Below are positions 9,601 to 59,284 of a DNA stretch of 64,000 nucleotides, in pieces. The notes under the pieces were generated by a model. That model saw nothing but the letters and a program-made list of their open reading frames with translations, was not told the DNA's origin and did no database searches. Location: NCBI GenBank assembly GCA_921293015.1, contig OV121097.1, positions 16,119,924-16,183,923 on the forward strand. The letters are read 5' to 3'. Position numbers and translations under genes: made by a program. Source of the stretch: Phorcus lineatus (Eukaryota; Mollusca; Gastropoda; Trochida; Trochidae). The stretch's first letter is position 1; every line of letters begins with the position of its first letter.

Positions 9601-12600
9601 ACGGAAGGGTGAATACACCTGCTGGATTTATCCATGGCAATATTCTTTATAATGATCAAAGTTAAGGATTTGTTACAGAGTCCTCCCGAAAAGCATTATT
9701 GTTGCCAGCTCTTCAGCAACCTGCACCATAACTTGACAAATCAGAGATCTGGCATATGCTACACACTGCCAAGGAGGGCGTTGAACTCAATCAACAAATT
9801 CTGGCGCAGTGCAGGAAGGCTTGAATTTGCTAATGATTAGACATCTGTGGGAATTTAAAGGCTAATGTCTTCCTGGTTATTTTCACCAAATAAAAAAAGC
9901 CTTGTTATCATTTTCATTTATATACAGTTTCCAACTCACCCTCATCCTCGCTGCTATCCTCAGAGCTGCTGAAGTCATCCTCGTAGAAAGTGTTTGAATC
10001 TGACGTGCTGCTACTACTCGTCTCTGAGTTCTCCGACCCTTGCTTCTGTCTCTTCAACATTGCAGCCTGAACAAAAGAATCAATAAGTGAAAATTGTTTT
10101 ACGGAAGAGATCAGATGTTCAATTCTCAAATGCAGGATAAAACTAAGCTCAGACTGCTTGATCCATGCTTCACATGTTAGCACTGAGCTAACCCGGTTGA
10201 ACAAAAAGACTGCCAAATTTATGAATGAAATTATGCACCTGCATAACAAGAAGGTGGGTATACAAAACAAAAAACATTTTTTGCTCAAAACGAGTTACAG
10301 GATACTAAGTGAGGGCAGACCGATACAAAAGAATGAGATAAGTGAAGTGGCTGTGATGACCTTGGGCAAAAGTGATTGAATAAGCTTTATTACTAGATAA
10401 TCACTGAATGCCAAAATCAATGTCTCATACCAAGTTGAATAAAATGAAATTTGAAGATTATATATATATATATATCATGAATGTACATCTCACAATAAAT
10501 TCTGAAGTTACCTTTTTGAATGTGACAACCACGAGGCTGAGCAACATGTCTGTGAGATTGATCCGAGCCACAAGTTTCTTCACCCTCTTCCATGCAGAGG
10601 CTGATGTCAGAATTGTAACATCCATCCCTGGTTTCACTTCACTTGGTACTGTCTGGAAGTCAATAAAAAGCTTGATTAATTCATTCCTTCCACATGAAAA
10701 GAACAAAGAAGCAAAATCTGCATTACATTTTGATATACAGATGAGTCAATGTACTGTAGGGAGAGAAAGGGGGTTGTTCTAGGGGCTCAACCCTCCACCC
10801 CGACTACATACTACTGCACTGAAAAAGGTAAACCCCTCTCGTTTTCTTTTTAATGATAGGTGACCTCCCTACTTCCCGTTTTAAATAATTCTAAATGTGC
10901 CCCTGCAGAATATTCTGTTATCTGCAAATGAAGGGTTAATGTTTGTTGAAATCACCTTGAGATCCCCGAGAGAGCCTTCTATCTGCAGATCTTCAAACAG
11001 TGTAGTGAGCAGCTGAACAGCATTAGATCCCAGAGCCACTGACAAGACACCAAATCCTTGGAAGGTGCTACAACGAGGGGATAAACTTTGAACTCAGTAT
11101 TCATTATGTATAGTCTATATGCATATGATGAATTTACCAGGCTTTAGCAATGTACAAAGTGAGTTAGTTTTATGACTAAATAATTAAATGATTCATTGCA
11201 CAAAAAGATAAATTTTCAAAAAGAGAACTCTATATGTATATAAGTAAAGACAGTACTCTGTGTACCTCCTCCCGGAGCTGGGTCTGCTGGAGGGGGACCC
11301 CCCTGTTGTTGCTGCTCCCCCTGCGCTGGCCTCCTTCGCCTTCTGACCTCCACTCTCAGACCCCTTGCTCTGTCTTGCATCCTTTCGCTCCAGGATCATC
11401 GCTGGAGTCAGGCTCAGTATTCCCTGTAGACCTTTCAGTAGTACCCAGGCAGCGAGGAGGTTAAGGTTCTGGGCCACCTGGAGAAAAAGGGTATTGTTTT
11501 ATTGGCCGACATGCAAGTCAAATAATTAGATTAGCTAACTCGACTTTGAAGTTGAATAAAGATAATCCCAGATCTTGAGAGAACAATTGGTGTTGTAAAG
11601 TTAACAACTTCTCCCTGGAGATTCAACCCATTTCAGTCGATGAAATAACACCATTAATGATGATTGACATATTTGACCCCAACATCATACTCTGTGACCC
11701 TTTAAGCCAACATTAAAGATTTGAGTACAGCCAAGATATTTCTGTTTGACTTTCAAGTGGTATATAAAATGCAAAAACGTAGCCAGACAAGGATTAGGTC
11801 CTCCAAACCATTCAAGAAAATAATTAATGAATCTCATAACAATCTTGTTACTTAGATAAACATGTTGTTCAAATTCATGTTACTTATTGAATATTTGACA
11901 GAAATTTAACCTTATGATCATTTAGTGGAATGGCCTAATGAAAAACTAAGTTTTAAAGCAACATGAAAAAACAAATCTCACAAGGTTGCTTTATAATACT
12001 TACACTTCCTCCAGCTCTAGTAGAATTTCTGACTGCAGTGCTCACACAGTTAAATATTTCCAACTGAAAAAAAACAACCCAACATAAAATAACCTTAAAG
12101 TTCCCATTTATATCTCATTCAACAATTATTCATTATATGTATCAGGTGTGCATTCAGCCACATCAAATTACAGTATGTGCAAGATTTGAAAAAGTACCAA
12201 TGCCCAAAGAGGTCAAACATGCAAGTCAATATAAACATGAAAACAAGGTCAACAGTTAGGCTCTGAAGCACAAGGCAACAGGCCATGTTCATTGATAAGG
12301 ACCACTGTAAGTGACTTATCAACACTATTATTGTTCACGGCAATGACAACTGATTTGTAACATCACACACAAATTTAAACGGTAAATTAGGGCAGGTGCC
12401 TTTAATATTTTCCAATAACAATTCCTGAATTACAGACATCAACATGAATGACCTTACCGTTTTCTGTACAATATTAGTTCCAAAGCCTTCTATTTCTTCA
12501 TCCTTTGCAGCTGAAGGCTGATTAGCTGCTGTCGGCTTGACCATGTTGACAATTGTGTTGGCCATGGCAACCGTGACAGAGGCATACAGACAACTCAGTG

Positions 12601-15600
12601 TGGCTATCACGATCTTCTCCAGTCGTTTTGGCGTCAGAGGTTCGAGAGACGGCAGGGAGAATGCTCGCCACACTATCGATACATCACTCAGCAATGACTG
12701 GTAACTGTAGATTGAAAGTGGTTGGTGCCGTAAGCAATGTTTGCATGTAAACACTTACTATAAAGAATCTGATAAGTCAAAAGGAAGGAATGTTCAAACT
12801 CTGCATTTCTCTATTTTGGTGTAAACATATTGCAATTGCTTGAAAGTAACTGCAATGATTTGAAGCCTAATTTACATGTCATAAGGTACATTTTGACACT
12901 ACTGGTTGAAATTTCTATTTTTAATAATACCAAAGACTGTCATTCTCCTTTTGTAAAAAAGAAATATTTCTGTCAATAGCTTGAAAATTAAAGGCGAAAA
13001 CATAAATCAAAACCTATTTATACAGATTAAATCTGGGTATGTAAACTTTAAACTAAACATATAAAGATATATATCATAAACATTAACATTACATATTTCT
13101 AGAACTAGAAGTGTATTATTTCAAATTTCATATTCAATCAAGAAATGCTAACTGAAATTTCGAATGAAACTTCAACTTCATCTTTACCTAATTCTAGGAA
13201 TGACATCTTTACTTAGTATCCTCTATCAATAAATGCAAAATAAAAACAACATTATTGTTACCAATTTCTAAGAAAGACTTATGTATATTCCATTCGGAAA
13301 TGCCAACTTAAAATGCTTAAAAAATATTCCAACAGTATCCATACCTATTCCTAGTGGTGAGAGCCTCGGAGAGAGTGCCAGGCATGAGGAAAGTCTTCCC
13401 AGCTACAGCGTCCTTGTATCTCTGAATGTACTTGCCAAGGAACGTCAGCTGAAAGCATGTGTCCACGAGAATATTGGCACCATTGTGTTGTAACAAGTGG
13501 GCTGTGTTCTTCTTTGCAAAGAGGACAGTCATTTCTTCACTCGTGTCACTGACATGGAGAACTGTAGCCTCCCCTTCGGTCCCTACGGTCTCAACTGGAG
13601 TTTCTGTCTTTGGGACTGACCCTGACCCCATTTCATCAAACACAGAGGTCAGTTGGTCAAAAAGGTTACTTCCTGTGTCAAGTCGTGGGCGCTTGATTTC
13701 CTTGGGTTTCATCTCTTCTGAAGATTCTGTAGAAAACATCGATGTCATTGACTCTTTTTGAATGTTTTTTTGTGTCTATTCCTTATATTCATATGCTTAT
13801 GCTTGAAGATGTTGTTGACTACTATTCACACTCATGGACACAAAAGACATTATGTGAGACTATAACAATTTAATGAAATGTTCTTTGTTGTTCAAAATGT
13901 TCAATATGTTCTTGAATACACAATCCCATAAAACTTGTAACTTGTAATTTATAGTTATCAATAGAATATTTTTTGCATTTCATATTCTTAATATCTATAA
14001 TTACTTGATAATATTTTTTAAGATTGGTACCTGGGGAGGATTCTGTTTCTGTGACATGTGGCGGTTTAGTCGCAGACTTCAGCATAGATGCAAATGTTAC
14101 CACATCAGCTTTAGGTAAACATCCACCGCCATTGCACAATCCTTTGATAAGTATCATCAAGTATTTCTGGAAAGAAGTTTTGACTGTGTAGTTCACATGA
14201 AAGGCTACACAAAGTCCTGTCCAACTTTCTTCATCAAATATTATGTTTTCACAAGCACTTTACTAAAGATACATACATTATGTCAAATGTTACAATTTAC
14301 AACTTTCTTAAGTCTTTCAAGTCCAAAATGTATCAGTAAACATATGAAAATATATATATGCTTATACATTATTATTATACATATATTAAATATTCATAGT
14401 AGTGTTAGTGGTCATAGTGACTGTTGCATGAATAGTTCCTTGACAGTTCAGGATTTAGGTCAAACTATTTTTGTTTCATTGACTGTAAGTCTCATGACCT
14501 CAAAGACAGTATATGATGATGTGATAAAAATATTATTAAACAACATATGTCAAACTCTACTTTTAAAAAAATGTGTTTTTGTATTACACAAATTTACACA
14601 TGTATTGTAAATTTCTAAAGGCAAAACAAACTTCTCAAAGTCTTTTCAGTATTTTTCAAAGTAAAACCAAAAGGCTCATTACATCTCTTCCATCTGCTTC
14701 ATAACGTAAGACTATGAATCTATGAACCCACAAGGAATATATGTTTGCTTACAAAAAGTGATATGTGCACATATGATAAACAGGACATGGCTTATGTTTC
14801 ATCTCTCAATGACAAAAAGGCTCTTTCTACCTGTGATATGGTGCAGCTTTCATTATGTTTCTGTAGCCTCAGAAGCATGAAGCGGATCAACACCCTGGAG
14901 GCGCTGCTCGCCTGCGACAGGGTTGTCTTTGTCACTGAAATATTCAAACAATATTTTGAGGACAAGATCGGATAACATTGAATACAGTAACACAAAAGTA
15001 GGGTTAAAACTGTTCAAAACTACATAGTTGATTCGGAATCAAGTTTCTGGCTGAGTGTACTTTTGTTACATCAAGGTATTTTGCTTTTGTTTCGGTGTAC
15101 CGTGCATCAAAGTGTTCATAAATTTTTTAAGTTTACACCTTAACCCTTATATGACGTTATATTTTTATTTTTGAATTGTATAAACTTTAAATATTTTTCA
15201 TATTTTAATGTTCATTTTCAGCCTAATTTTTTTTTGTTTCATTATTTATTCTGTGCCAAACTGAAAATTTTATATTTCAAACAACTCAACCTTCATCTTC
15301 AAGCTTTAATTTTTTAATTTAAGGATAAATGTGTACCTTAATGACCAACACAAGAATTAAGCTACTTTATTTCCTAATCGAAAGCAAAAATACTCACAAC
15401 TGCTGGAGCTGGCACTAAGAAAGTGCGCTGAGAGAGCCACAAACGACGAGTAGAAGGGCTCGAAGTCGTCATCATGTTCCAGAAACTCTCTCTCACTGCA
15501 AGTAGATGAAAAATCACTTTATAATTTGCTATAAAAATTCATTGATGATTGAACAGTAAATGACCTCATTTTCATTGCTTCAGGAAAATAAAGTGGCACA

Positions 15601-20940: not shown

Positions 20941-21105
20941 CTGTTGACTAGACCTACTATGCCTGCCTCCTCTAGGCATGCTTTATTTCAACCTTATTAC
21001 CACAGACGAAACTTGAAACAGTGGAGTAAGGGATGCGTAAAATCCCCCTCCAAGGGCGGTAAGTCAGTGGTCTCGTGACGTCACTCCCAGAAGCCTTCAC
21101 TCTCC
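20941..21105 (+). repeat. DIRS left inverted terminal repeat
   Basis: It begins CTGTTGACTAGACCTACTAT and ends in CTTCACTCTCC. It reads as the exact reverse complement of 26859-27023 over all 165 positions compared by eye. Outside it, 20922-20940 matches only the internal complementary region. Confidence 0.93.
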
Positions 21106-21578
21106 TCTCAGTTGCAGAGCAAGACAGTTGTTTATGTTTTCGCTTTGACTCTGGGCTTTTCTAGCGTTATTCTTCGCTGCTTTTGCTAACCTTACTTCGT
21201 ATTCAATTAAAGGGTTTGTTTTTACGCCTTATCTACACGCTCGGCGTTATATTTGTTTGTTGTTTATTGTAGGTTTGAGTGAGTGAGTGACCTTGTTGAC
21301 ATGTGCTAGGCTGGGCGCTACCAAGCTTGAAGCTGCACGCTCTGCACGTGCAACTCGTGTCTCTTGCTTTCTCTCTCCTTCGTCGGGTGACTGCTTGGGT
21401 CGTACGGCCTCCACCCTCCGCCCTCCGGCTTCGTCGGGTGACTGCTTGGTTCGTACGGTCTCCGGCAGTTCTTTCGTCGTCTAGTGTCAGGTGGGTCTTC
21501 CGACAGCTCGTCGTCTGCTTCGGTTGGCTTTCACCTTCGGCTGACACTAGTTTTTCGTCTTCGGGGGTGCTTCGATTT

Positions 21579-21755
21579 CGGACCCTCCGGTAGTCTGATC
21601 CTACGATAGTCGGATCCTCCGGTAGTCTGACCCTACGATAGTCGGACCCTCCGGTAGTCTGACCCTACGATAGTCGGACCCTCCGGTAGTCTGACCCTAC
21701 ATTAGTCGGACCCTCCGGTAGTCTGAACCTACGATAGTCGGACCCTCCGGTCGTC
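21579..21755 (+). repeat. 32-bp minisatellite in the DIRS leader
   Basis: About 5.5 tandem copies of a 32-bp unit, each containing CTCCGGTAGTCTGACCC and CTACGATAGTC. Copies differ at single positions. It lies between the left terminal repeat and the gag-like frame. Confidence 0.85.
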
Positions 21756-21867
21756 TAGACTTGCGTGTTTTCTCACTTAAGCGTCTCGTCGTTTCTACGT
21801 TTTGTGAGTTTACTCACTTGTTGTGTTTTGAGTGGTTAGTTATCGGAAGGGTTTGCTACTACTTAGT

Positions 21868-22045
21868 GTCAGGGGCTCCACTGTCGCTCACCTCGTCTAG
21901 CTCGTGTCAGTGACTCAACTGTCACTCACCTCGTCTAGCTCACGTCAGTGCTAGCTCACGTCAGTGCTAGCTCACGTCAGTGACTCGACTGTCACTCACC
22001 TCGTCTAGCTCACGTCAGTGACTCGACTGTCACTCACCTGGTCCG
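21868..22045 (+). repeat. 38-bp minisatellite in the DIRS leader
   Basis: Tandem copies of a 38-bp unit built from TCGTCTAGCTCACGTCAGTG and ACTCGACTGTCACTCACC, with one internal run of a shorter subunit (about 16 bp: CTAGCTCACGTCAGTG). It sits directly before the gag-like frame. Confidence 0.85.
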
Positions 22046-22128
22046 GCTTTCATGCGTCGTTGACTCCGGTCTTCACTCGCTGGTTTCGCCTTGTTCGTCT
22101 TGTCGGCTACCTCCGTATTAGCTTCGCC

Positions 22129-23873
22129 ATGTACTCTGCGTTTTGTACACAATGCGGAGGTCGGAAGTCTGCTAACAAGGACCCGCACTTGCTGTGTAGG
22201 AAGTGTAAGGACTTGTGTGAGGAGGGGTTTCGTTGCAACGAGTGTGCCCCTCTCTCTCTTCTTCAGACTTCAAGGCCTACGTTTCGGTCATTCGCAAGTC
22301 CGTTACTGATAGGGCTTATGAGTTGAAGCGAGCAGCTCCGACAGGTGAATCGGGTCGCGATCGAGAGTTTTCTCCTATTCGTCGCCCCTCTCCGGAGGAG
22401 AGGGTGGATGAGTTTGACCGGAAGTTTCCGGAAGAGCAGAATCCGGTAAAGGTTCGAGGGACTCCCTCTCACCTCGTGGTTCTTCCTGCTCTCGCTCTGG
22501 GGCTCGTCGCTCTCTGTCCCCCCTTCGTGTCGGGAGGGTGAGAGGTGTACGTCTCCGCTGAGGCTTAAAGTCGTCGAACCCACTACTCCCAAGAGCAAGA
22601 AGAAGATGAAGACAGCTAAGTTTGACAAGTTCAAACCGGAGCTGCTTCTTGCGTCCGTCAAGGACATGGTATCTTCTCTGCTGGACGCTCGATTGGGAGG
22701 ATGTAGTAATCACCGAACGGACCGATGAGTTTCACAGGTAGTTTCCGGAAGAGCAGAATCCGGTAGGGGCTCCCGCTACTACGATAGGTCGAGACTCAGA
22801 GGGGGACAGCTTGTCACATGACTCGTGTCACGCTCTCTTAAGGGCCTCCGGGTTGGCTTTGTCTTCGCGTCCCTCGCACACCCCCACGCGTCGTGTCACG
22901 GTGGTGTCACCGACTCGTGACTGCTCTCCGGACTTGGATGGCTGGGAGGCCCGCTTTGGGACGTATCCGACCCTCCATTCATCAGTATATTGTCAGATGC
23001 GGAGGTACGGGGTCATCGGACGACCCTCCGGCTGTGGACTTAGTCGCCATGTTGACTGAAGTGGCTTCATTCGCGGAGGGACCACTCAGTCAGGTCCGCG
23101 TCTCCGGACCTCGCTCATCGGTGGCCAGGAGGGTTTTCTATAGTGGGATGGGGACACACCTCCCATGCGACTCGCTCTTCCTCCTTACAGGCTCCTGCTG
23201 GACGCCGTGGAGGATATGAAGCATGTCATCTCGTCTGCTGATCCTAACCGTCTGCTACCACCGTTAGTAGTGTCTGACAAGCGCCGGCGTCAGTTGCCAC
23301 TGCATCCGGCTCCCTTTCAACTTGTCCCGCCTGCTCTCGATCAGGGTTCGTCTTGCTTGATTTCCCCCGACGCACCCCATCGCGTTACTGATACGCAGCT
23401 CACGCATCTCGACAGAGAGGGCTAGCACAGTGTTGGGGTTGGGGAATCACGTGACGTTCACCTGTCAGGCGATGCTCAACTGCGCCAAGCGGGCAGACAT
23501 GGAGTCGGGTGACCTGGTGCTCCTCAAAGGCTTCAGCAATGTGGCCGCTGACCTCGCGCAGATCATGCTATCGGCGTCGCGTTTAGCGTCAGGGGGTACG
23601 AGTCTGCATAGGGACAATCACTTGCATCTTTCTGCCCCGACCAGAGATCTTTCCTCCGGCAGGCCCCAGCCAACTCGGAATCTCTCTTTGGGGGTCGTAT
23701 CCCCGATGTACTTAGAACGCGACAGGAGGCTCAACAACAAGACCTTACGAGTCGGCTCGCGGGGAGTCAGAAGACGACCAAACGTACGGCGGCTAACTAC
23801 CATTAGGGTCAATCTAACCCTAAGGAAGCCAGGACTGACTTTCGGCGGGGAGGTCGTGGCCGCGGATCCATAA
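22129..23873 (+). pseudogene. DIRS gag-like region, frameshifted
   Basis: A frame opening at 22129 encodes a cysteine cluster (C-x2-C...C-x2-C...C-x2-C in the first 40 residues), as seen at the start of many DIRS gag proteins. Continuations lie in other frames: 22265-22470, 22560-22725 (Lys-rich), 23165-23425 and 23430-23600. At least three frame changes are therefore needed. A direct repeat (22427-22447 and 22742-22762) suggests an internal duplication. The product would be a nucleocapsid-type protein; this copy cannot make it intact. Confidence 0.6.
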
Positions 23874-23990
23874 GTCAGCAATCTCCCAAGTCCCCCCATC
23901 CTGGGGCCGAAGGCCGTACCCCTCAGGAGGGGAAGCGGAGGAAGTGACCCGTGGTCACACCCTCAGCTTTCTCCTCCGCTCGTTCCGACG

Positions 23991-24969
23991 GTGGGGGGTC
24001 GGCTTCAGTGCTTTGTCAGAATCTGGGAGCATTTAGGTTTAGAACCGTTCGTTTGTCGAATACTGCGTCAGGGCTTCCGCATTCCCGTCTCGTCTCCTCC
24101 TCCTCTTACCGGTGTTCCAAGGGAGCGTCCCTTGTTACGGGACCGGCTCCAACTAACCTTGGAACATTGGAACGATGGGCTCGCTCACAACCGTTCTCCC
24201 GTCGTTCTCGAGGCACAGCTCAGGTTCACGATAGACCTGTTCCGTCGTCTAGGATGGTAGGTGAACTTAGAGAAGTCGGACTTAATCCCGGCGACTCGTC
24301 AGAAGTTCTTAGGGGCTCTCCTAGACACTAAGCTTTCCGATTGTTTGTAACGAGGGAACGGAGGGCTTGTGACAATTGGTTAATGGATCTCACTCTCGAT
24401 GCGTCACTCTCCCTACGTCAGTGGCAGAGAGTGTTGGGGTTGCTAACATCAGCTCAGGACCTGACCCGCAGGGGGAGGTTATTCATCCGCCAGTTACAGG
24501 TGTTCCTGAGCCCCCACATCAGTGAGGCGCGGTGTCGTCACGCCATAGCTCTGACTCCAGATCTGCAATGCTTCCTAGCTTGGGGCGGGTAGACGAGAGT
24601 GTTTTCTCCGGGGTTTCTCTTCAGCCTCGTCCCCCCTCAGCTCACCTGTTCGTGGACGCCTTCACTCAGGGGTGGGGGCGCATCTGGGTCACGAGCAGGT
24701 GGCGGGAGTCTGGTCTCAGTCAGAGAAGAACTCGCACATCAACGTCCTCGAGTTGGATGCAGTCCGCCTAGCCATTCAACATTGGCTAGTCCCCCTGCGA
24801 AGCCCCTGTCTACTAGTCCACACGGACAGTTCAGCGGGGGTCCACGAAGGCCGAGGCTCTGCTTCGCGTGTCGCTCCGGCTCTTCGAGCTAGTGGATGAT
24901 ATGGAGCTGGACATCCGACCAGTCCACATTCCAGGGGCCAAGAACATCTTGGCGGACGCGCGGTCGTGA
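23991..24969 (+). pseudogene. DIRS reverse transcriptase/RNase H remnant with RT core deleted
   Basis: 23991-24150 encodes the pre-RT segment (IWEHLGLEPFV, then a SPPPL motif), as found just upstream of DIRS RT. At about 24150-24190 the frame passes directly into the post-catalytic RT segment (HNRSPVVLEA...LFRRLGW), so most of the palm domain, including the YxDD motif, is absent. A stop follows at 24258, and the continuation (NLEKSDL...FLGALLDTK) ends soon after. RNase H traces follow at about 24640-24960: FVDAF, LELDAV, HTDS and VHIPGAKNILADA, spread over at least two frames. It is a dead polymerase gene. Confidence 0.8.
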
Positions 24970-25305
24970 CCCGATGCCCCTCCCCCAACGGAGTGGCAAC
25001 TGAATCGCGACGTGTCTCAGTCATCAGCTACCGACTTATGTCTCCCCAGTACCAGACCCTCGAGCGATGGCCTTAGACGCGCGCTCGTTAGGGTGGGAGG
25101 GGATGGACGCCTAGGCTTTTCCGCCGCCAGCCATCCTCTCTCAGGTGGTAGCCAAGATAGGGACAACTCGGGTCTTTCGACTTCTTCTGGTCGCCCCCTG
25201 GTGGCCAGCCCGACCGTGGTTAGTTCCTCTCCGGCGTCTCTGTGATCAGTACCCTGTTCTGATTCAGTCACGGAGAGATCTGCTCCTCAGCAGGCCAAGC
25301 GGAAG

Positions 25306-26401
25306 GTGACACGAGAACCCTCAGGTGTTCTGCCTTCACACGTGGCTTGTATTAAGAGAGGGTTAAGGAGCAGTGGTTACTCTAGGTGTGTCGCCAATGC
25401 CATAGCTACCTCTAATAGGAAGACCACTAGGAAACTCTATGACTTCCAGTGGCAGGCCTTCGCCTCCTTCTGTGCTCAGCGGGGTTTCGTCCCGGCGGAG
25501 GCCTCCGTTTCTCAGGTAGGAGAGTACTTGGTGTACCTACGCAACACCAGGCATCTTAAGGCGTCATCAATTAACACCAACCTGTTGGCTATCCTCTCTG
25601 TACTTAAGAAGAGGTCGCCGGGTTTAGATGTGTCGGTCCTCAAGCGGGACGGCAGGATTAAGCTTCGTCCACCCGAGTGGTACTTAGCTGTCGTGCTCAG
25701 CCACCTTCGCTCCGATAGGTATGAACCGCTCTCCGACGTTCCCCTCCTCCCTCTCACCATCAAGGTCATTTTTCTGGTGGCCATGGCCTCCGTAACTCGG
25801 GTTTCAGAAACCCATGCGTTACAGGCGGACCTTCTACGATTGAGGTCAGGAGGGGGGGGTTATCAGCCTTACTTGGTTTAGCTCCCTACTTCGTCTGCAA
25901 AAACCAAGCAGCTGATGAGGCGGGCCGTACACACTCTATTCCGGCACTGGGGTCTGAATCGGGAGAGATAGATCTCTCTCTCTGTGTCCGGTTAGAGCGT
26001 TGAGGGTTTACGTGCAGCGTACACGCAGGCTGAGGGGTGGCAGGCGTCGTCTGTTCTTGCCTCTCTCGCCGTGGAGCACACAAGAGATGGACAAGCGAGC
26101 GTTGGGTGTATACCATAGGTCAGCAGTCATTGACGCGTACAAGGCCTCTGACCTGCCACCCCCGTCGCGTTCCAACCCGCATGAAATCCGAGCAGTCTCA
26201 GCCACGATGGCTTACCACTGTAACATCGCGGTCTAGGACGTCATGGCGGGGTGTTGTTGGCGTTCTTCAGAGGTCTTCGCCAATCATTACCTACGAGATC
26301 TCTCCACATCAGATCTCGAAGGTATCTCAAGGCTGGGTCCGCAGGTTTTCGCTCAGGCGAAGGTGGTCCACCCGATCAGACCGAGAAGGGGACAGTCCTC
26401 T
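25306..26401 (+). pseudogene. DIRS tyrosine recombinase, nearly intact but interrupted
   Basis: The catalytic tetrad is recognisable: Arg in the VTRVSE motif (codon 25798-25800), His (26180-26182) and Arg (26189-26191) in PHEIR, and the nucleophile Tyr in NHYLRDL (26288-26290). The N-terminal core-binding part is open from 25306. The frame breaks at 25881 and resumes at about 25985 (VRALRVYV). A TAG at 26234-26236 separates the HxxR box from the Tyr box. In DIRS elements this enzyme inserts the circular DNA without making target duplications. Confidence 0.88.
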
Positions 26402-26701
26402 TAGGAGGAGGGTCCCGTGTGTCTTTCGATGCTCCTTGCAAAACTTCGGTTCGCATCGTTTGTTCTTTGTCGGTTATTCCTATTTACACTTTCCCCCATA
26501 GGGGTCGGGGACAGTGTTAATCAGGAGTTGAGTGGCTGGGTTGTCTCTTCGATCCGCTTAGCGGTAGAGATAGTGTCTCCCGGGCTGTACCTTGTCCTCA
26601 CCACAGGGTGGAGGACTCGTAGGTTAGCTTACACTCAGGGCTTGTCGCTGGTCTCGTCTCTCCCATATATCTACTGACCCACCTCCGTGCAGTGGAATTC
26701 T

Positions 26702-33420: not shown

Positions 33421-33975
33421 ATACGTCCCACTTCACTTAGATATCATAGTGAATCCTTAATTAGCTTGTAAACGTTCCCGCTTCACTTGGATATCTTAGT
33501 GAAGCCGTAGCTTATACGTTCCCGCTTCACTTAGATATCTTAGTGAAGCCGTAGTGTATACGTTCCCGCTTCAGTTAGATGTCTAAGTGAAGCCGTAGCT
33601 AAACGTTCCCGCTTCAGTTAGATATCTTAATGAAGCCGTAGCTTATACGTTCCCGCTTCACTTAGATATCTTAGTGAAGCCGTAGCTTATACGTTCCCGC
33701 TTCACTTAGATATCTTAGTGAAGCCGTCGTGTATACGTTCCCGCTTCAGTTAGATATCTTAATGAAGCCGTAGCTTTTACGTTCCCGCTTCACTAAGATA
33801 TGTAAGTGAAGCCGTAGGGTATACGTTCCCGCTTCAGTTGAATATCGTAGTGGACCTCTAGCTTTTTCGTTCCCGCTTCACTTAAATATCTAAGTAAAGC
33901 CGTAGCTAAACGTTTTCGCTTCACTTAGATATCCTAGTGAAGCCGTAGTTAATACTTTACCGCTTGAGTACCTTC
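33421..33975 (+). repeat. Palindromic 43/44-bp satellite, array 1
   Basis: About 12 units of ACGTTCCC plus the palindrome core GCTTCACTTAGATATCTTAG and a GTGAAGCCGTAGC tail. The core of each unit is a near-perfect 26-bp palindrome. Units alternate 43 and 44 bp, with substitutions (for example CAGTTAG for CACTTAG). The spacing sequence is the same in every unit, so it is a satellite and not a CRISPR array. Confidence 0.95.
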
Positions 33976-34466
33976 CCTTAGAAAAAAGACCTACCTCGTA
34001 CCTAGACCGATTACAAATGTAGGTCCATGTGCATGTGGTTGTGATTCAGCATATTGCGAAAGAAGAGTTCCAGGCAGGCAGTGTACTTAAAAAGTTCAGT
34101 TAAGTAGAACCATTTGATTCTGTCAACCAGGAAGAGATGACGGTCTGACATAAAACCTGTACTGCATTTGCTCTTTAACTCATCTACATATATATGCGTA
34201 GGACAATGCGTCGGTATCTCAGGTAAGTCTCAATTTATTCTATCAATCGTCTGGAGAAGGATGACAGGCTCATTAAAAACATGAACTAAGTTTACACTTT
34301 GACGAATATCTATAAACACAGACATCGGGGTATGTCTATATTGTAGGACAATGTATCGATGGATTGGTTAAGTTCTCAATTATTGGCTTTCTTACTAACA
34401 CCTCACCATCAACTCACGGTATGTAGTGGAAATAGGGAATGACCGCCTACATCTAAAACGTGCATA
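33976..34466 (+). repeat. Segmental duplicate of the 31.44-31.96 kb region between the two arrays
   Basis: The stretch from the GTGGTTGTGATTC motif (34035) through the CTGTACTGCATTTGCTCTT motif (34158) and two donor-bearing units (34190 and 34330) parallels 31480-31930 in the same order and orientation. The duplication therefore carried the donor-bearing repeats to a position between two satellite arrays. Confidence 0.75.
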
Positions 34467-35447
34467 CTCAGTTGAATATCGTAGTGGAGTTCTAGCCTTT
34501 TCGTTCCCGCTTCACTTAAATATCTAAGTGAAGCCGTAGCTAAACGTTCCCGCTTCACTTAGATGTCTTAGTGAAGCCGTAGCTAAACGTTCCCGCTTCA
34601 CTTAGATGTCTTAGTGAAGCCGTAGCTAAACGTTTCCGCTTCACTTAGATGTCTTAGTGAAGCCGTAGCTAAACGTTCCCGCTTCACTTAGATGTCTAAG
34701 TGAAGCCGTAGCTAAACGTTCCTGCTTCACTTAGATATCTTAGTGAAGCCGTAGCTAAACGTTCCCGCTTCACTTAGATGTCTTAGTGAAGCCGTAGCTA
34801 AACGTTCCCGCTTCACTTAGATGTCTTAGTGAAGCCGTAGCTAAACGTTCCCGCTTCACTTAGATGTCTTAGTGAAGCCGTAGCTAAACGTTCCCGCTTC
34901 ACTTAGATGTCTTAGTGAAGCCGTAGCTAAACGTTCCCGCTTCACTTAGATGTCTTAGTGAAGCCGTAGCTAAACGTTCCCGCTTCACTTAGATGTCTAA
35001 GTGAAGCCGTAGCTAAACGTTCCCGCTTCACTTAGATGTCTTAGTGAAGCCGTAGCTAAACGTTCCCGCTTCACTTAGATGTCTTAGTGAAGCCGTAGCT
35101 AAACGTTCCCGCTTCACTTAGATGTCTTAGTGAAGCCGTAGCTAAACGTTCCCGCTTCACTTAGATGTCTTAGTGAAGCCGTAGCTAAACGTTCCCGCTT
35201 CACTTAGATGTCTTAGTGAAGCCGTAGCTAAACGTTCCCGCTTCACTTAGATGTCTTAGTGAAGCCGTAGCTAAACGTTCCCGCTTCACTTAGATGTCTA
35301 AGTGAAGCCGTAGCTAAACGTTCCCGCTTCACTTAGATATCTTAGTGAAGCCGTAGCTAAACGTTTCCGCTTCACTTAGATATCTTAGTGAAGCCGTAGC
35401 TAAACGTTTCCGCTTCACTTAGATATCTTAGTGAAGCCGTAGCTTGA
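34467..35447 (+). repeat. Palindromic 43-bp satellite, array 2
   Basis: A degenerate leading unit (to 34501) is followed by 22 units of exactly 43 bp (34502-35447). These are far more uniform than array 1; most carry GATGTC instead of GATATC at the palindrome centre. The leading unit matches a late unit of array 1 (the GTTGAATATCGTAGTGGA variant), showing common origin. There is no coding potential. Confidence 0.96.
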
Positions 35448-49728: not shown

Positions 49729-52700
49729 ATGCCTTTTTGTTCACATTACGTACAATGGTTAAAGGTTTTTAATTCATTTTCCAGACTAGTATTTGCAACA
49801 ATGGTGTTGCTGCAGTCTTCTTCTGGCTATCCGTACTTCCCTGGTAAGATCCCAAACGGAGGGAATGTGCCAAATCCTTGTAAACCGGAAGAGCTTTGGC
49901 CGGGTGTTGGACACAAACTGCAGGGCGGAAATGGCGCACGCAACCCCTTTGGTCTAGACTTTGCTGCATCTGGGAAGGTTTGTGTGTCAAAAAAATTAAA
50001 ATTGAATTGAAAAAGTTTGAGTCAAAAGAAGATAGAATATAAAGTGAAAGGATATCATAATTTCAACTTTTTCACCATGTAATTATTCATATTTTTATCA
50101 AAAGAAGAACTAGCTAAAGGGCCAAGGATAAGATCAGGGCTGAATTAGGAACATTTAAATATATTAAAAGGATTCGGACTTACGCTTTTATTTTTGTCTT
50201 TGATAACAGTATCTTCAGATAGTAAAGACGATATATCATTCCGAAATGGCTTCGTTTTCAATCCAATTTGAACAAGATCGCTTCGAATTTTCCTAAACGA
50301 AGATATGTCATATTCAATAAACACGATAACCAAAATATCTAAGGATATATTTTATGATGATCAGATGTGGACCACTGAACTATGCCAGATGGACTCGGAC
50401 GGAGATGGACGCCACAATGGATTCGAACTCGGAGACCCCAATTGTACCTGGACACCTGGAAGTGAACTGTCTACTGGCCTAACTATTAGCCATCCAGGTA
50501 TATATAAAACAAAAAATATTAATTCACAATCATCCTGCCATCAACCTGACCATCACTCATCCAGGTTACAAATACGCGAAATGATAATTCACAATTTCCT
50601 ATCCATCAACCTCACCATCACTAATCCAGGTTACAAATACGCGAAATGATCATTCACAATTTCCTTGCCATCAACCTCACCATTACTCATTCAGGTTAGA
50701 ATTACTCCAAATGATAATTCACAATGTCTTTGCCATCGACCTCACCATTATTCATTCAAATTATCTAAACGCAAAATGATAATTCACAATGTTCTGGCCA
50801 TTAACCTCACCATAATTACTCATTCAGGTTATGAATACACAAAATGGTAATTTACAATGTATTTGCCATCACTTTCACCATTAGCAATTCAGGTAGACGT
50901 AAACCATAAAAAATATTTAAAATATCGATATCCCCCTTGACCAATATTCATTTATCTAGACAAATTAACACAATTGAAATAATGATAAAAAAACCTCACG
51001 AATTTACATTTATTTAGTCATATATAAATCACAAAGTTCTCATAAGTAAAATCTTTTGGCGTCAAACTCATCTATACTCATCCAGATAAACATTAGAACA
51101 CGAAGTAATAATTTAGAATGACCTTTGTCGTTGAATTCACCATTTACCACCCAGGTCAACAAAATAATACAAGTCTTAAACATCCTTAAGCTTCCTTAAG
51201 CGAAACGCCCCGTTTGTCATCAAGGAAGACTTAAAACACAGTCACCATTTATAATGTCTTTTGCCGCAAAAGTCATCTTCATGTTTGCATTTTCTTTTTT
51301 TTTTATACATATTATTGAGATGATATATAGATTATTGGTCGTCTCTCTATTCTCGACAAATGTCAGTGAACAGTGATTCAAAGAAGACATCGAACTTAGA
51401 AAATTCATCTGTCATTTTTTAATTAAAAGATCGACAAATCATCACCATAATGTAATATTTCAGGTATCTGCGAGCCTTGGAACGACCCCAAATGTCTGGC
51501 CCTGGACCAGGACTGGGTGATGGAAGCATGTCAACCTAAAGAGTTCGACTGTCCAGCTATAAACCAGCCAGGTACAAACTGATCATTTTCAAACGTAAGA
51601 TGTTTGGAGTGTGTGTGGGAGGGACAGTTTTTAAATAAGCCTTCTCGAAACTTCATGTTCTTCAAACAGAAATAGCTCCATCATGAATTTCTAAACAACC
51701 TCTGCCGTAATACGAGCTATAATCGGTCCAGAAGTGTAGAAGTCTGATTGGATGTAATGAAAATTAGCTGTGCAGTCAAGGACTATTTTTCAAAACGCCT
51801 TGTTATTTCCCTATGAACACATTCGCTTTGATAAGAGCCTGAATCATTGCCCGTTTGACAACAAATATGTCATCCATGCATGCAGTGTTTTCATAATTTT
51901 AAATATTACAAGGTAATTCATGTTGAAAGATTTTCCCGCTAGGGGAACCTGTCGGAAGCCCGAGTAGAGCTCGTATTAGAACAGAGGTTGTATTGCAATT
52001 AATGACGGAGCTACATAATCATATGCTTGCCTATGGTCATTTGCATCAGCAGAGAACCAGGTTGATTTACCACACAGTAATAATGCATACTAGTCAGTTG
52101 AGTGTATATCATTAGGTCAGAGGGTCAGCTTAATCAAAAATGTTATTTTGAGATTTTCACGATTGTGAACAAGTGTACTTGAGGTTCGTGGTTAGTGTTT
52201 GAGATTTGTTTCCAATATTTATCATACCTATAAAGAGAAATACCTAAATCTCCTTTGTAGTTTAGCGAAATTCGTTAAGTGCATGTGTTAAGAGGGTGGC
52301 AGCCATAAATCGCAAAAATCTTGATGTGCTGAAAATAGTTAATTCATGATAGTGACCATGCCCATTTTTCATTTTACGTAGTCTTTTCCAAATCAATGAG
52401 GTCTTCCTTAGATATTTTCATCATTGATATTTTTGTTCAGTTAAACTGCTATTTAATTCTAATTCAGTACTTTAAAGCGAATGCTCAGGAACTCGAATTT
52501 AATTTTAAATGGAACCTTACCCTTGTCTGGATACCAGAGAATGTGAGCCTAGAACTGGAAATGCAAACCGATTTCCTCGATATATTACGAAAGCGTGTTG
52601 ATAGACGTGTATTTAGGTAGGCACATCGACCTAGTAGTTTCATTGGGTTATCCATATCGAGGGCGGGAAATTTCAGTACGGAGAAAAGTCCAAGGAATGA

Positions 52701-55700
52701 TACAATGAAGAGCACCTGAACGTTCATCTCTGGTTAACAAAGATGACTACCGCCTGCAGTCCATATTATGACAATCTTTCATTCTTCACCAACAGATGTC
52801 ATTGACATAGAAGTTCGTCTGCCAAGCACTCAAGTTCCCGCCAAAGAGACAACTTACATGTGTCAGATCTTCACTATGCCAGTAACTGACAACCACATGA
52901 TCGCCACCACACCGATCATCAACAACACAGACGTTGTCCATCACATCGTCCTCTTCGGATGCGACGGCGGTATTGAGTTACCTCCTTTTGAAATACATAA
53001 TCGTCTTTTGAAACTGTAGTAAGACTCAGAATCTCAGTCGGTCTTATTCTCTAAATGGAGTATATTAGTACTACAAACACAAAACTTATTTAATGACTAT
53101 TTTAAGGATTGAAAAGCAATCGCATCTCCGATCTCAAGATCTTCGCCTGCCTCTGTGGTAAATGAGTTACCTCCCTTGGCTATGACTTACTTATGACTTT
53201 GCAAAATGTCAGTAAAATTTTAAACTAAAGACCCCATCTTGATCTTCAGATTCATAAATGTATACACTTTTCATCCCTAAAGAAATTAGACAATATGAAA
53301 TGTAAGATTCATGGATAAATAATTAATATCGAATAATACTTTTCGACTGCATCGGCGGCAATGGGTTACCTACCTTTGTACTGAATGAGTACTGAACTAC
53401 TTTTGCAAGGCATAACCCGTGCTAGACACAATAAACTGGCTAATTTAAGCCTCACTGCTTAACACTTAAGAAACAGAAACTCAGATTTAGCCATCATTAT
53501 TTTTAAAGTATTTACCGATCCACGGTGAAAGTAAAGAAATATATATTGTGTTCCATTACAAAGGCCACTCAAATAAAACTCTAACTATTAACACGGACTG
53601 AAAAACTTAAAGAAGGTTAAAACGGACAAGGGCGTTTCGCTTTCGAACCCTTCAAAGATGGCATGTCTAGTCGATTTGACATCCCCTGGAAGATTTATGT
53701 TGGTATTTTTGTTTGAAAACAGATGCCCCCAAAACAAAGAATCCTTTTATTTGTGGGATGGTCCCGAGTTCGAATTGCTCCAATATCATCAGTGTTTGGA
53801 CACCGGGTAGTTCCGGCGAGTGCTTGCATCAAACCATGGGCTTCAAAGTTGGCGGACATGGCTTCAAGGAAGTTGCTTTGCAGGTACTGGAATATCAACA
53901 TATATCGATGTTAATTTCTGTTAAAGGGCGATGTTGAAATCTCTTATTTCATATGAGAGAATAATGAGTTCGAAGGCTTCAAGTTAAGGGACATTGATAA
54001 ACGAATATTGCTTGGCAGTTGATAATTGTCGGTGAACGCAATATTTACCCATTGGATTCACTTACGATTTACCTATTTCCTCTAAAAACCAATACTTGGG
54101 AGTCAAACAATGCGTGTTTTTAAGTTAAGTCATGGATGGAGAAAAATTGCTTTCCTTTTGCTGGAAATATCCAGTTAATTTTTATTCACGCCAATTTCAA
54201 TCCCTTGATTCGCTTACGTTCTAACCTACTTACTTACTGCGTTTCAAGGCTTCAAATTAACTACCTAATTGATAGAAATTGGTTATGCGTTTGCATATAT
54301 TTGGTAAATGTATATTTATGGGTTCACTCGCACTTTTGTATTTCTAATGTTCATATTAGAATGAATACATGTGGCTTCAAATGAAGCCATGTTACATAAA
54401 TTGTGCTTGACATGTGCTGATTATAATCGGTAAATGTATATTCACGTCAAAAGTCATCCATTTAATTTCCTCGTCCTCGTTGCCTATAACCTATTCCAGA
54501 GAGCAAATATTCTGTCCAAAGACTTCAAGCTTAGCCTCGCGCATACAGCGTATTTGTTTGGCTGAGGGATGAAACTAATTATCTTACATTTAACTGATGA
54601 ACATATATATACCAAACAAAAAAAGTTAAGGACCACACCAATTTTCAGTAGGAAGATTTACTCTAGTGAATATAATGATGCTTTAAATCAAGTATTGGGG
54701 TGGTCCTGAACTTTTTACGTTGAATTTAATACAAGATTAATGGATGTCAAACTTCTTCATTTAAAGAATTCTCTCGTTTCGGTAGATCCTTATTCCGGAG
54801 GGGATATCCCAATTTTGTTGACACACCATAAAATCTTGTACCTACTTCTTTAACATGTTCTAGAAACCCGCTCAAACAGTGTTCACAAGCTCTCATTCTT
54901 TACTGATAATTCGTGTCCTCTTATGTTTCAGATTCACTGGAACAATCCTATTCGTCGAAGTGATTATTCTGACCAATCAGGAATGGTTATGTACTTGACA
55001 CCGAACCTTCGAGACAGCGATGCTGGCATCCTAACAACAGGTCAGAGCTATTTGTGGATCCCTCCCAAGGAACGCAATGTTGTAAGGGAATCTATTTTGC
55101 CAGTGGAGTGCAGCCAAGAGGTTTTCACAGGAAACATCTATGTCACAGCTGTGCTTAACCATATGCACTATCTAGGTAGGTTTTGAGATAAATAGAGAAA
55201 ACTAGAATAACATTTTTATGAAACGAGTAAGTGGTTTCGTATTTAACGAGCGTAAGCGAATCACGAATTTCATAATAAAAAATTATTAATCGGGACTTCG
55301 TTTCGAGTTCAAAGTTTAACTCTTGGAATAAAAACGTGAGTGGTTTTGGTATTAAACGAGGGATTAAAAATAAACTAAATAAGCGAGTAAAATGCCAAAA
55401 CCGTTTACGAATTTCAAAGCCAATGAGATGTAATAAAACGGGATTGATTTCCGAATTTTAATTATCACTCGTTGTGATGTGTAATATCAAAGCGGAATCG
55501 TTACAGGCAACTAATATTTTGACTTTAAGGGGATCTGCAACCTTAATTTGAGCCATGACCATTCGAGCGGGGTATTTTTTGTGGATTATTGTTTTTGTTT
55601 CCTGTTAACATATATATATGATTTTTATATGATTCTTTTCACACTTTTCAAATATGTACATGAGGTTAACATTTCAGTTGTTCAAGATTTAACAATTTGA

Positions 55701-58700
55701 CAAAGAATAAAGTGTATCGATCAAAAAAGAAAAACTTCGTGAAATGAAGCCAATCATCGTGGCAACGAATGTGGAATGCATTACTACGTCAAAACATTGT
55801 CGTAACTGACAACTTTTATTATGAATTATTTCTAAATATGCTCCTCTTCTATCAATCTTTTAGTTATCTCTTAATTTTGTCAATGAATTAGCATTATACA
55901 GCACATTTGATTCCTAGCAATGCTAACATTTCAAGATGGCGGATGAAAGCCGCTCGAATGGTCCTATTTAATCGGCAGTATGGTTAGCCGACCGGCTATG
56001 CTTTAGTGACACTGGAGCTATAGGTATATTATCTATCAGAGACAACTTAAGTTATCTTTTAAGTGTTACCTATGTCACAAGTTGGTCAAAATTCCAAATG
56101 TAAATTTGCCACACGGATATCGTCCTAACTTTAAAGCATCAACTACCGTTTTACCAACTGACCCCTGTCTTGTGACGAAATGTTTGAATCACAGTAAGTG
56201 AACTCAATTATTCCCAATATGCAATAGTTACGGCGAATAACACGTACTTGTAATAATAAGAGTTACGTTTGCTACAGGTTAAGATTTAACATTTTCCCAT
56301 GGAACTTGACATCCTTTTTACGTTCAATTGAGGGGCAATCGCAAATGAAAATATAGTCGCAAGCGACGACGACAAGATTCAGCGCTGTAAAAGCACATTC
56401 AGTACAAACATAGTCATGTTAGCAATCAACCCTGAAAGTTTCATGAAGATTGGCTCACGCATTAGTCCACAGCAGCATGTTTTATGTGACCAAGTTTCGT
56501 AACCAAACTGCGATTATTGCAAAGAAGTTGATAATGCTAAAAAAACCATGACACATACGAATTCGTCATGATCTACTTTTTTGTTTGAATTGATATTACG
56601 TTTCTTTCAAAACAAGTTTCAAGTCTCTAAGTCAATTTTGAAAAAATACCCCATGTTAATTTTGAAAAAGGTATTTTTCCCGATTTTGATCGATTATTGT
56701 GAACGAAAATGACTGTTCGCGACCAATGATTTTATTGATTTGTAAAGTGCCCATAGTGGTTTCACATTCCTGAGAAAATGGTGCAGTTGTGAGTCTAACT
56801 TTTTGAGTTATCGCCCCTTGAACATGCTCACATGTGCTAAGTCGCCCGACTTCGAAGGGTTGCTGAGTAAAAAGTATTAAAGTTTGAGCAAAAATTTCAC
56901 TAACTTTTTCTCCTCAGTACTTCAGCTACAACATATGTAACTTTCAGCTCTGAGATGCTAGTATCTTCGGAGGAGAAGATTCTCAACAACAAAAAAATAA
57001 TAATAATAATAAAACACGCCAATAACAATAAGGATTCAGCAAAATTGCTGAATCCTTAAATATAAAATATTTGGGTTGAAAGGAACAATCCTCCATCAGT
57101 GATAACAAATCTGCATGTACTGATGGCCAGATTTATAGACACTTTGACAATATGTAATATATAGACAAATGTGAGAAGGGGCAGAAGCACGTTTGTTCTC
57201 ACACAATCTTATTTCTTCAAATTTTCCCCAATAATCATTAGATTATGACAAAGGTATTAACTTTAAGGATCAAAGATCTAATTACTCAACCCGGTCAACC
57301 GTATTCGTGAGAAAATGTTCAAGTATGAAGCAAAAATGACTGGGGTAATTTATACGTGAACACCTTTTAATCATTTGAGATACGGAAATGGATTCGCATG
57401 GCTTATCTGAACTGCTTTTTCGGATTATAAACCATTGTCCTGCAATTTGAAATATTTACATTCGGTTCCCTGAGATCACTGTATTAAAAGGTCTATCCAA
57501 AAAATTCGCATACGAATTGACAAACTTGCTTTAAATACATATTAACTTTCGATGAAAGTTTGCATCTCAATTTAAAGACCGAAAATGAAAGCCTGTATAA
57601 AGTCATGCCTTTCCTAATTTTAGAAAGCAATGTCCGTCGCATTAGTATCTTATTCATGCATGATATGTTCATGTCGTTTGACTCGTTTCGGTCGTCTCAA
57701 CCTTTATAGATTTGATTAGAGAAATTTGAAAAGATTGCTTTTCTATTGATTTAAAATAAAAACAAGTGCATATGACTCAAATCACTCCGATTCCGATTTG
57801 GAAAGTGGATGATTTTGCCTATGTGAAGCCAAGCTACAGAAAGAACATAGAACTGTAAGGATTACAATACCAATAGTTGAATTCTTTCTTAAATTTCATA
57901 CGGAATTTTTTCAAGTATTTTTTTGGAAAGATTTTTAAAAGAATAATTTTAAAACCTTTATGGGGAAATGAAATTATAAAATGTTTGACAAAATATACTG
58001 TGAAACCTCTTTAATCGCACTTCTATCCCAATAGGAACATCCCATTCGTTGATTCTCTACAGAGGCGGGGTCAAACTTCGCGAGATAGCTGTTGATGAAT
58101 ACTACAACTACGATAACCCAAAGTTACACGTGTAAGTTACACAGAATATGGATCTCACAAGGTCCATTACGTCAAGCCGTCAAGCACTTTTGACGTCATA
58201 ATCTGACTGACCTAAAGCGGAGAACTTCGACCAGTCACAATACACGTACCTGAGAGCCTGGCCTATAGATACGCCAATGAAGAGTCCACTTATGTCTCAG
58301 CCTTTGGGGGAAGTATTTCAATTAAGAAAATATGTAAATTTTCAGTAAACTACGTTTTTACGGTACCTTCTGACACAATTTATTCATAAATACATATTTT
58401 ATTGTAGCTTTGACGAGCCTATAGAAGTGAGACCCGGGGACGAGCTGAAGACGACATGCGTCTACTCCTCGCTTGACAGAAACTTCACCACTCAATTCGG
58501 AGACGCCACATCAGATGAAATGTGTTTCTCCTTTATAACCTTCTACCCTCTTCAGAACCTTAAGAGATCTTTCGTGAGCAGCTACAAGTCCATAGGCAGC
58601 TGCCACATGAGGGACACAAACTACCAGGGCTGCAACATGAGAACATTTCCTGATCTCACGGATCCTGTCATCACTCGGCACCTAACTGACGTCACGAGAG

Positions 58701-59284
58701 ACTGTGTCCTGTTCGAGACATGCACCCAGAAATGTTATGACACAATCCAGGCTGCCAAACAGCATAGCTGTCTTAAAGGAGATGTGTGGGATTTTCTCAT
58801 CTACAGGATGTTTAGTACCATCGAAGGCGTCAACTTCCTACTACGTCTTCAGTCCTGTGCCTGTGGACTCTCATCAGAAGCACCTCCAGTTCTGACGCCT
58901 ATACCTGGATCAGAGTCTTCCTGCGACTGGCCTGGTCTCGTGAAAAGAACAACGGCTCATCCCCTACTAAATCTCTACAGCAATGTCAAGGCCAGATGTG
59001 TTGCCATCGGACTCTGCTTGAAGGAGTGCATTCCAGCAGTGAAGGAGGCAAGGAGTCATCGATGTTTCCAGGGTTCTGAGTGGCACTATGGGCGAAGATA
59101 CATGCATCAGAGCCTGGACTCTATTGCGTTGGAATTCCTTATGGACTTTGAGTCTTGTAACTGTGAAATCTCGGCAACAAACCCTGAAACTACAACCCCC
59201 GTGACAGGAACGGCTGCCATCGCTTCAAGTTTTGCAGGAATTTCGACAGTGGCAATGTCGTACACGTTTTTGTTCCTTTTCTAA
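49729..59284 (+). CDS. Temptin-domain DBH/MOXD-like copper monooxygenase, GPI-anchored
   Basis: Exons: 49729-49977, 50365-50497, 51464-51571, 52796-52969, 53723-53883, 54932-55175, 58035-58131, 58408-59284. All join in phase: 2,043 nt, 680 residues. Residues 1-33 look like a signal peptide. Residues 34 to about 160 form a temptin-like domain (PNGGNVPNPC, GVGH, CQMDSDGDG, GDPNCTWTPGS). Residues 164 to about 440 form a copper type II ascorbate-dependent monooxygenase. The expected ligands are all present: His212/His213 (VVHHIV), His277 (IHWNNP), His352/His354 (NHMHYLG) and Met427 (SDEMC). Known relatives hydroxylate phenylethylamines; the substrate here is unknown. Two cysteine-rich modules follow. 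The last 20 residues are hydrophobic behind a TTTP-rich linker, suggesting a GPI signal. The first Met is chosen because the frame opens there; Met25 is an alternative. Confidence 0.92.
50498..51240 (+). repeat. 65-bp tandem repeat derived from an exon-intron junction
   Basis: Starting right after exon 2 of the temptin-monooxygenase gene, AATTCACAAT-anchored units begin at 50521, 50586, 50651, 50716, 50781 and 50849. They decay in recognisable form to about 51240. Each contains CCATCAACCTCACCAT..CTCATYCAGGTT, which matches the exon 2 end plus donor (CTATTAGCCATCCAG|gta). Most units thus carry a copy of the splice donor. Confidence 0.85.
52970..53722 (+). other. Intron 4 with possible donor-junction duplicates
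   Basis: The GAGTTACCTCC stretch just behind the exon 4 donor recurs at 53163-53176 and, altered, at 53363-53376. Each is preceded by sequence resembling the exon end (TTCGCCTGCCTCTGTGG and TTCGACTGCATCGGCGG against TTCGGATGCGACGGCGG). The spacing is about 190-200 bp. It is a weaker case than in intron 2. Confidence 0.5.
54612..54721. mobile_element. Short MITE in intron 5 of the temptin-monooxygenase gene
   Basis: About 110 bp with inverted ends AAAAAGTTAAGGACCACACC and GGGGTGGTCCTGAACTTTTT. The interior has no coding capacity. Target duplication is unclear. Confidence 0.7.
55200..55440. repeat. Two foldback modules in intron 6
   Basis: 55208-55277 folds back on itself (TTTATGAAACGAG against CACGAATTTCATAA, with ACGAGCGTAAGCGA in the centre). 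55328-55425 is a second, related foldback (GTGGTTTTGGTATTAAACGAG against GCGAGTAAAATGCCAAAACCG). The style resembles the foldback half of the MITEs at 19.4-20.2 kb. Confidence 0.55.
57030..57058. repeat. Perfect 13-bp stem hairpin in intron 6
   Basis: AAGGATTCAGCAA, a two-base loop, then TTGCTGAATCCTT, directly after an (AAT)n stretch and ACACGCCAATAACAAT. It looks like the structured 3' end of a dispersed repeat whose body may reach back to about 56,330. The family is unknown to me. Confidence 0.6.

Follow-up and report, generated by a model that had tools for sequence, protein, structure and literature searches.

A window of 64,000 nucleotides of the Phorcus lineatus genome (G000:C39:16119924-16183923 of a 958-Mb assembly), the whole stretch of DNA analysed here, harbours what is likely to be one gene of the lophotrochozoan temptin/monooxygenase family, encoding a probably secreted and probably GPI-anchored type II copper monooxygenase with temptin in the place of DOMON. 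The fusion is not new, its domain order having been in print since 2009, and judging by its domains the window gene belongs to that kind.

The gene lies on the + strand at positions 49729-59284 of the window, where eight exons with GT-AG introns join in phase into a frame of 680 amino acids followed by a stop. AG/GT borders are present at 7/7 introns and the phase is kept across each, in agreement with the eight in-phase exons of the initial annotation; the two junctions that it had singled out for verification, 50497/51464 and 51571/52796, are identical to those of the spliced model. The features of the gene are as follows.

49729..49977, + strand: exon 1, leader of residues 1-33, resembling a signal peptide by eye, followed by the first half of the temptin domain, with C51 and H62 of C-x7-GxGH
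50365..50497, + strand: exon 2, remaining half of the temptin domain, including DSDGDG (which starts at residue 93) and ELGDP
51464..51571, + strand: exon 3, linker with cysteines leading from temptin to the CuH domain
52796..52969, + strand: exon 4, start of the CuH domain, ligands H212 and H213 at 52939-52944
53723..53883, + strand: exon 5, CuH domain
54932..55175, + strand: exon 6, CuH ligand H277 (54935-54937) and CuM ligands H352 and H354 (55160-55168)
58035..58131, + strand: exon 7, CuM domain
58408..59284, + strand: exon 8, last part of the CuM domain, where M427 lies (58520-58522), then both cysteine-rich repeats of the C-terminus, the stalk, the hydrophobic tail and the stop
58601..58876, + strand: cysteine-rich repeat 1, residues 454-545
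58922..59173, + strand: cysteine-rich repeat 2, residues 561-644
59213..59281, + strand: hydrophobic tail at the C-terminus, residues 658-680, with hydropathy averaging about 1.5-1.6 per window

The leader is weakly hydrophobic and, unlike the C-terminal tail, stays below the hydropathy cut. Since two paralogues of the gene (c3 and c5, see below) have a stop in or before the leader part of exon 1, a first exon further upstream is possible and the start of exon 1 is uncertain. Intron 2 holds a minisatellite of 64-65 bp units (50520-50883), the units of which contain a stretch resembling the end of exon 2 with its GT; the alignment score of the unit against the exon-2 end was no better than that of shuffles.

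The search of the 680-residue protein against Pfam with the temptin and copper monooxygenase profiles, which had been suggested as a check, placed both families well over their cut-offs: Temptin_C at residues 32-129 (122 bits, cut-off 27, E 1.5e-35), Cu2_monooxygen at residues 169-282 (78.5 bits, cut-off 30, E 6.6e-22) and Cu2_monoox_C at residues 305-442 (83.5 bits, cut-off 23, E 1.4e-23). No DOMON was detected in the protein at E values up to 1, and no lyase domain appears in its Pfam list. The temptin domain has the DSDxDG-type motif in the form DSDGDG; the CxxCH motif is absent from it, 10 residues separating C51 from H62 and a glycine preceding the histidine. The copper site announced by the initial annotation (HH, H, HxH, M) proved to be complete: all six ligands (H212, H213 and H277 for CuH; H352, H354 and M427 for CuM) are present and align with those of human DBH (chain 4zel), the DBH ligands being the ones named in the available text of PMC4846438. 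In phmmer searches residues 163-441 matched human DBH 4zel with E 5e-35, while the core matched PHM chains with E 8e-25 to 2e-23. With both Pfam domains above cut-off and the full ligand set, the protein has the features of type II copper, ascorbate-dependent monooxygenases; it is predicted to bind copper and to carry out O2-dependent hydroxylation, possibly of amines. As far as sequence analysis can establish it, the locus is thus confirmed as one real protein-coding gene in which temptin and a copper monooxygenase are fused.

The window gene stands in a tandem array of 14 genes (14 temptin exon pairs and 14 CuM exons). Within 307 kb of joined sequence, tblastn revealed five A-type copies (the window gene plus four similar to it) alongside three divergent types, B1-B3, the matched stretches of which are 27-70% identical; the gene order is A B1 B2 B3 A', A B1 B2 B3 A', A B1 B2 B3. 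In all nine B genes the matched stretches retain HH, H, HMH and DEMC. Self-alignment of the array at an offset of 75-115 kb gave blocks which sum to 102 kb with a mean identity of 96.5%, a mean biased upward by the filter applied (blocks of >600 bases, >=85% identical), the longest block being 33.7 kb at 99.0%; blocks at an offset of ~185 kb average 89.9%. According to these blocks a unit of ~90 kb was copied, at least partly in recent time, and through such duplications the array exemplifies how a probably secreted oxidase has recently been amplified. In the profile search of the genome, temptin matches are missing from the list for 16.42 to 17.46 Mb and also for the stretch from 15.71 Mb to the window gene, so that this gene seems to form the left end of the array.

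Copies c2 and c4 have intact frames of 712 amino acids with no internal stop, and their exons 1-7 agree with the window gene in size and splice sites, beyond what chance would produce. The stalk of both (L010/L011 and L014/L015) carries 32 extra residues of a Thr/Pro repeat, three units versus one, before the hydrophobic tail. Copy c3 (L012/L013) is disrupted in exons 1, 4 and 6, yet its exon 8 is 97% identical to that of the window gene; since c3 is disrupted and c5 has no clear start, not every copy of the array is active. The dN/dS ratios calculated by the Nei-Gojobori method over residues 84-650 were 0.19 (c1-c2), 0.17 (c1-c4), 0.24 (c1-c5) and 0.32 (c2-c4). For c1-c2, c1-c4 and c1-c5, respectively, they amounted to 0.29, 0.25 and 0.17 in the temptin part and to 0.16, 0.16 and 0.24 in the copper core, the highest regional value (0.43) being that of the C-terminal part in c1-c5. 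By this comparison both domains are under constraint.

Several other features were recorded in the window. Part of a UBR4 gene adjoins the array, four ORFs at 9917-14259 on the - strand corresponding in order to the N-terminal part of this E3 ligase (PF19423). A GC-rich island (21000-26600, up to 57%) includes an ORF (25246-25881) with a weak match to a tyrosine-recombinase N-terminal domain (23 bits, cut-off 27), and is possibly a recombinase-bearing mobile element. Two arrays of 43-44 bp tandem repeats are located at 33472-35444, the second of them 98% uniform with 21.9 copies. A tRNA-like Rfam match (32.4 bits) was obtained at 2996-3052 on the - strand; ARAGORN found no tRNA in the window.

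The two cysteine-rich repeats behind the copper core (residues ~454-545 and 561-644) are 26% identical, and their alignment score was reached by 0/1000 shuffles. The B-type genes possess a single such domain, spread over two exons and followed by a hydrophobic end, although B3 matches the repeat profile weakly (E about 0.2). In an alignment of 11 repeat rows, eight of which come from four near-identical A copies, seven columns are invariant and five of these are cysteines. The AlphaFold model of the repeat built with this alignment consists of four helices (pLDDT 71, core blocks 77-87). No Pfam family matched the domain over cut-off, and a new fold is not claimed for it. The two repeats contain 8 and 7 cysteines, that is, fewer than the 10 conserved disulphide cysteines per domain of GFR-alpha/GAS1, and comparison by hhalign with single-sequence templates gave a probability of 1.6 for GFR-alpha/GAS1 and, for the C-terminal region against the dimerisation region of human DBH, of 0.1.

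The profile search of the whole genome yielded at least 49 Temptin_C exon matches (26 of the second half and 23 of the first), 32 of Cu2_monoox_C, 27 of Cu2_monooxygen and 12 of DOMON, all lower bounds; the four families gave no match in 14 control genomes. Manual pairing, in which a CuM exon had to follow the temptin exon on the same strand at <=12 kb, placed 22 of about 26 temptin domains upstream of a copper-monooxygenase exon; splicing covered the window gene and its A copies, and the remaining pairs rest on proximity. Fourteen of the pairs lie in the array, where a Cu2_monooxygen match is listed between the partners in 10/14. The eight others are located on C39 (2.38, 9.29, 15.71, 17.46, 41.01 and 41.06 Mb), C1 (50.33 Mb) and C29 (42.65 Mb), with a Cu2_monooxygen match between the partners in 7/8, none being listed at C39 9.29 Mb. 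One large contig, G000:C39, thus holds 20/22 pairs. On C13 there are four temptin matches without a CuM match nearby, three of them being represented by the second half only. DOMON matches occur beside temptin-less copper genes (C39 22.68-22.74 Mb and near 19.39 Mb) and also on C5 and C19, while none was obtained in the array; since the profile finds DOMON elsewhere in the genome, its absence from the window gene is not a search failure.

Taken together, the product of the window gene would be secreted and held at the cell surface, its CuH/CuM pair hydroxylating some extracellular substrate in an O2-dependent manner. The temptin domain may be an accessory module to the enzyme, stabilised by disulphides and calcium, and the C-terminal domains with the stalk as a spacer or dimer contact keeping it at the surface. 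Surface anchoring had been assumed in the initial annotation. The cysteine-rich protein with its hydrophobic end is in line with that assumption, and the tail, judged by hydropathy alone, may be GPI-signal-like; a tail of this kind is, however, no proof of anchoring.

A narrower version of this explanation, concerning the role and not the mechanism of the enzyme, would have it act in the mantle or shell matrix and oxidise matrix proteins or catechols. The available text of the respective reports lists a protein "similar to tyramine beta-hydroxylase/temptin" in abalone nacre (PMC6003135), Temptin-1/2 together with a DBH-like gene in an oyster shell gene set (PMC11464482) and mantle-specific temptin-like genes in zebra mussel (PMC9210306). 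All of them, however, come from other species, and the abalone table row, as available, has no monooxygenase domain listed, so a matrix role, although it deserves serious consideration, is on balance somewhat doubtful. Temptin and DBH-like monooxygenase genes are also named among copper-response markers of mussel larvae (PMC8696127, available text), and for Biomphalaria temptin attraction is reported with other roles noted (PMC10075465 and PMC5685644, likewise in part). In view of these mantle, shell, copper-response and attraction reports, an extracellular oxidase in mantle or mucus seems, to our reading, no less likely than a role in signalling.

Temptin might alternatively be a former or present redox module, which passes or once passed electrons or metal to the copper sites. 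A scan of 84,980 prokaryote species (one genome per species) with exact peptide patterns from the window temptin domain resulted in 13 pattern matches and a single relative, a Temptin_C protein (48 bits) of Polyangium, a member of Myxococcota. In this phylum Temptin_C was found in 33/235 genomes (80 matches), over cut-off in 32 of them. CxxCH is present in 13/13 of the loci read among these 80 matches (L001 (= L038) and L039-L050), which were chosen by profile, mostly best first, and are not a random sample. Alignments of animal temptins (5 rows, A and A c2 being nearly alike) and bacterial ones (12 rows, L044 left out) were matched by hhalign with a probability of 99.9 and E 7e-32, and the bacterial C-x-x-C-H aligns with C-x7-G-x-G-H in 5/5 animal rows, the histidine standing in the same column. 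By these alignments animal temptin is homologous to the myxobacterial CxxCH domain, and the motif suggests that the latter binds haem. It is likewise in favour of a redox module that temptin occupies the DOMON slot of DBH and that 3/6 of the bacterial Cu2_monooxygen loci read (L052, L053 and L056) have a CxxCH there, N-terminal of the copper domain, albeit in a stretch unlike temptin; Cu2_monooxygen itself was over cut-off in 91/235 genomes of the same set. Against it, the cysteine next to the histidine is gone in animals and the other is separated from it by 10 residues, so that covalent c-type haem is not expected in animal temptin; moreover, CxxCH is absent from the other three copper loci read (L051, L054 and L055), no fusion of temptin to a copper core was seen among the Myxococcota loci read, and haem binding by the bacterial domain is itself deduced from the motif. 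We therefore regard a redox module as unlikely. Equally speculative is the broader scenario in which temptin did not originate as a pheromone: a secreted bacterial domain of c-type-haem-like kind, of which temptin would be the animal form, joined a copper monooxygenase as its N-terminal partner, replacing DOMON as a redox or regulatory module, and the stand-alone pheromone temptins branched off later from this enzyme family.

The initial annotation had read the temptin module as a sign of chemical signalling; in such a role the enzyme, or a fragment shed from it, would take part in a pheromone complex. Temptin is indeed active in attraction in Aplysia and Biomphalaria, according to the available text of the published work, but the position of most temptin domains of this genome upstream of a copper-monooxygenase exon, the presence of the domain in bacteria, the published mantle and shell ties and the anchor-like tail of the window protein make the signalling role improbable, and the step from a temptin module to signalling finds no support here. 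Temptin owes its name and most attention to its role as a pheromone, yet in this genome it stands mostly beside exons for copper monooxygenases, and the bacterial proteins related to it have the motif for haem attachment. Should the same be true in other molluscs, "temptin" hits of expression studies might have to be reinterpreted as copper monooxygenases, and it would become possible to test what the domain does (binding of haem, metal or calcium; effect on the activity of the copper core).

That two neighbouring genes or a dead copy were mistaken for one fusion is very hard to maintain, the broken copy c3 notwithstanding, in the face of the phase unbroken over all seven introns, the structure shared by c2 and c4, dN/dS values well below 1 and an annelid EST clone with the same fusion, described as fully sequenced in the available text of PMC2762978.

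The preferred explanation, a probably anchored copper monooxygenase with temptin in place of DOMON, has its closest counterparts in that publication (2009), according to the available text of which temptin and both monooxygenase domains occur together in an annelid cDNA (Pomatoceros lamarckii GQ381308), in the DBH-like Aplysia protein AAY42041 and in a Lottia gene, the hybrid lacks DOMON and is called a lophotrochozoan synapomorphy. The window protein, uniting a temptin N-terminus with both monooxygenase domains, falls under the same definition and has the same order, temptin first and then the two monooxygenase domains without DOMON; it differs in its doubled C-terminal cysteine-rich domain, of which the available published description of the hybrids, the basis of this comparison, makes no mention, and in its 13 tandem relatives. 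The Myxococcota proteins share with the window temptin the IPNG-type start and the RNxFG-type and DSDGDGxxNGxELGDP-type motifs, but have CxxCH instead of C-x7-GxGH and, as far as the fetched loci reach, continue into EGF-like, aspartate-rich or low-complexity stretches, several long frames running off the locus. Aplysia temptin has the Temptin_C domain in common with the window gene, but is a stand-alone pheromone protein, while in the window gene the domain belongs to an enzyme that also has a copper core. PHM shares the catalytic core (E about 1e-24); the arginine before its HxH, a peptide-binding residue, is replaced by leucine in the window protein (yrvhthhlg in PHM versus vlnhmhylg). Human DBH (4zel) aligns over the CuH/CuM core and all six ligands, but possesses a DOMON and a dimerisation domain, and where DBH carries DOMON the window protein carries temptin.
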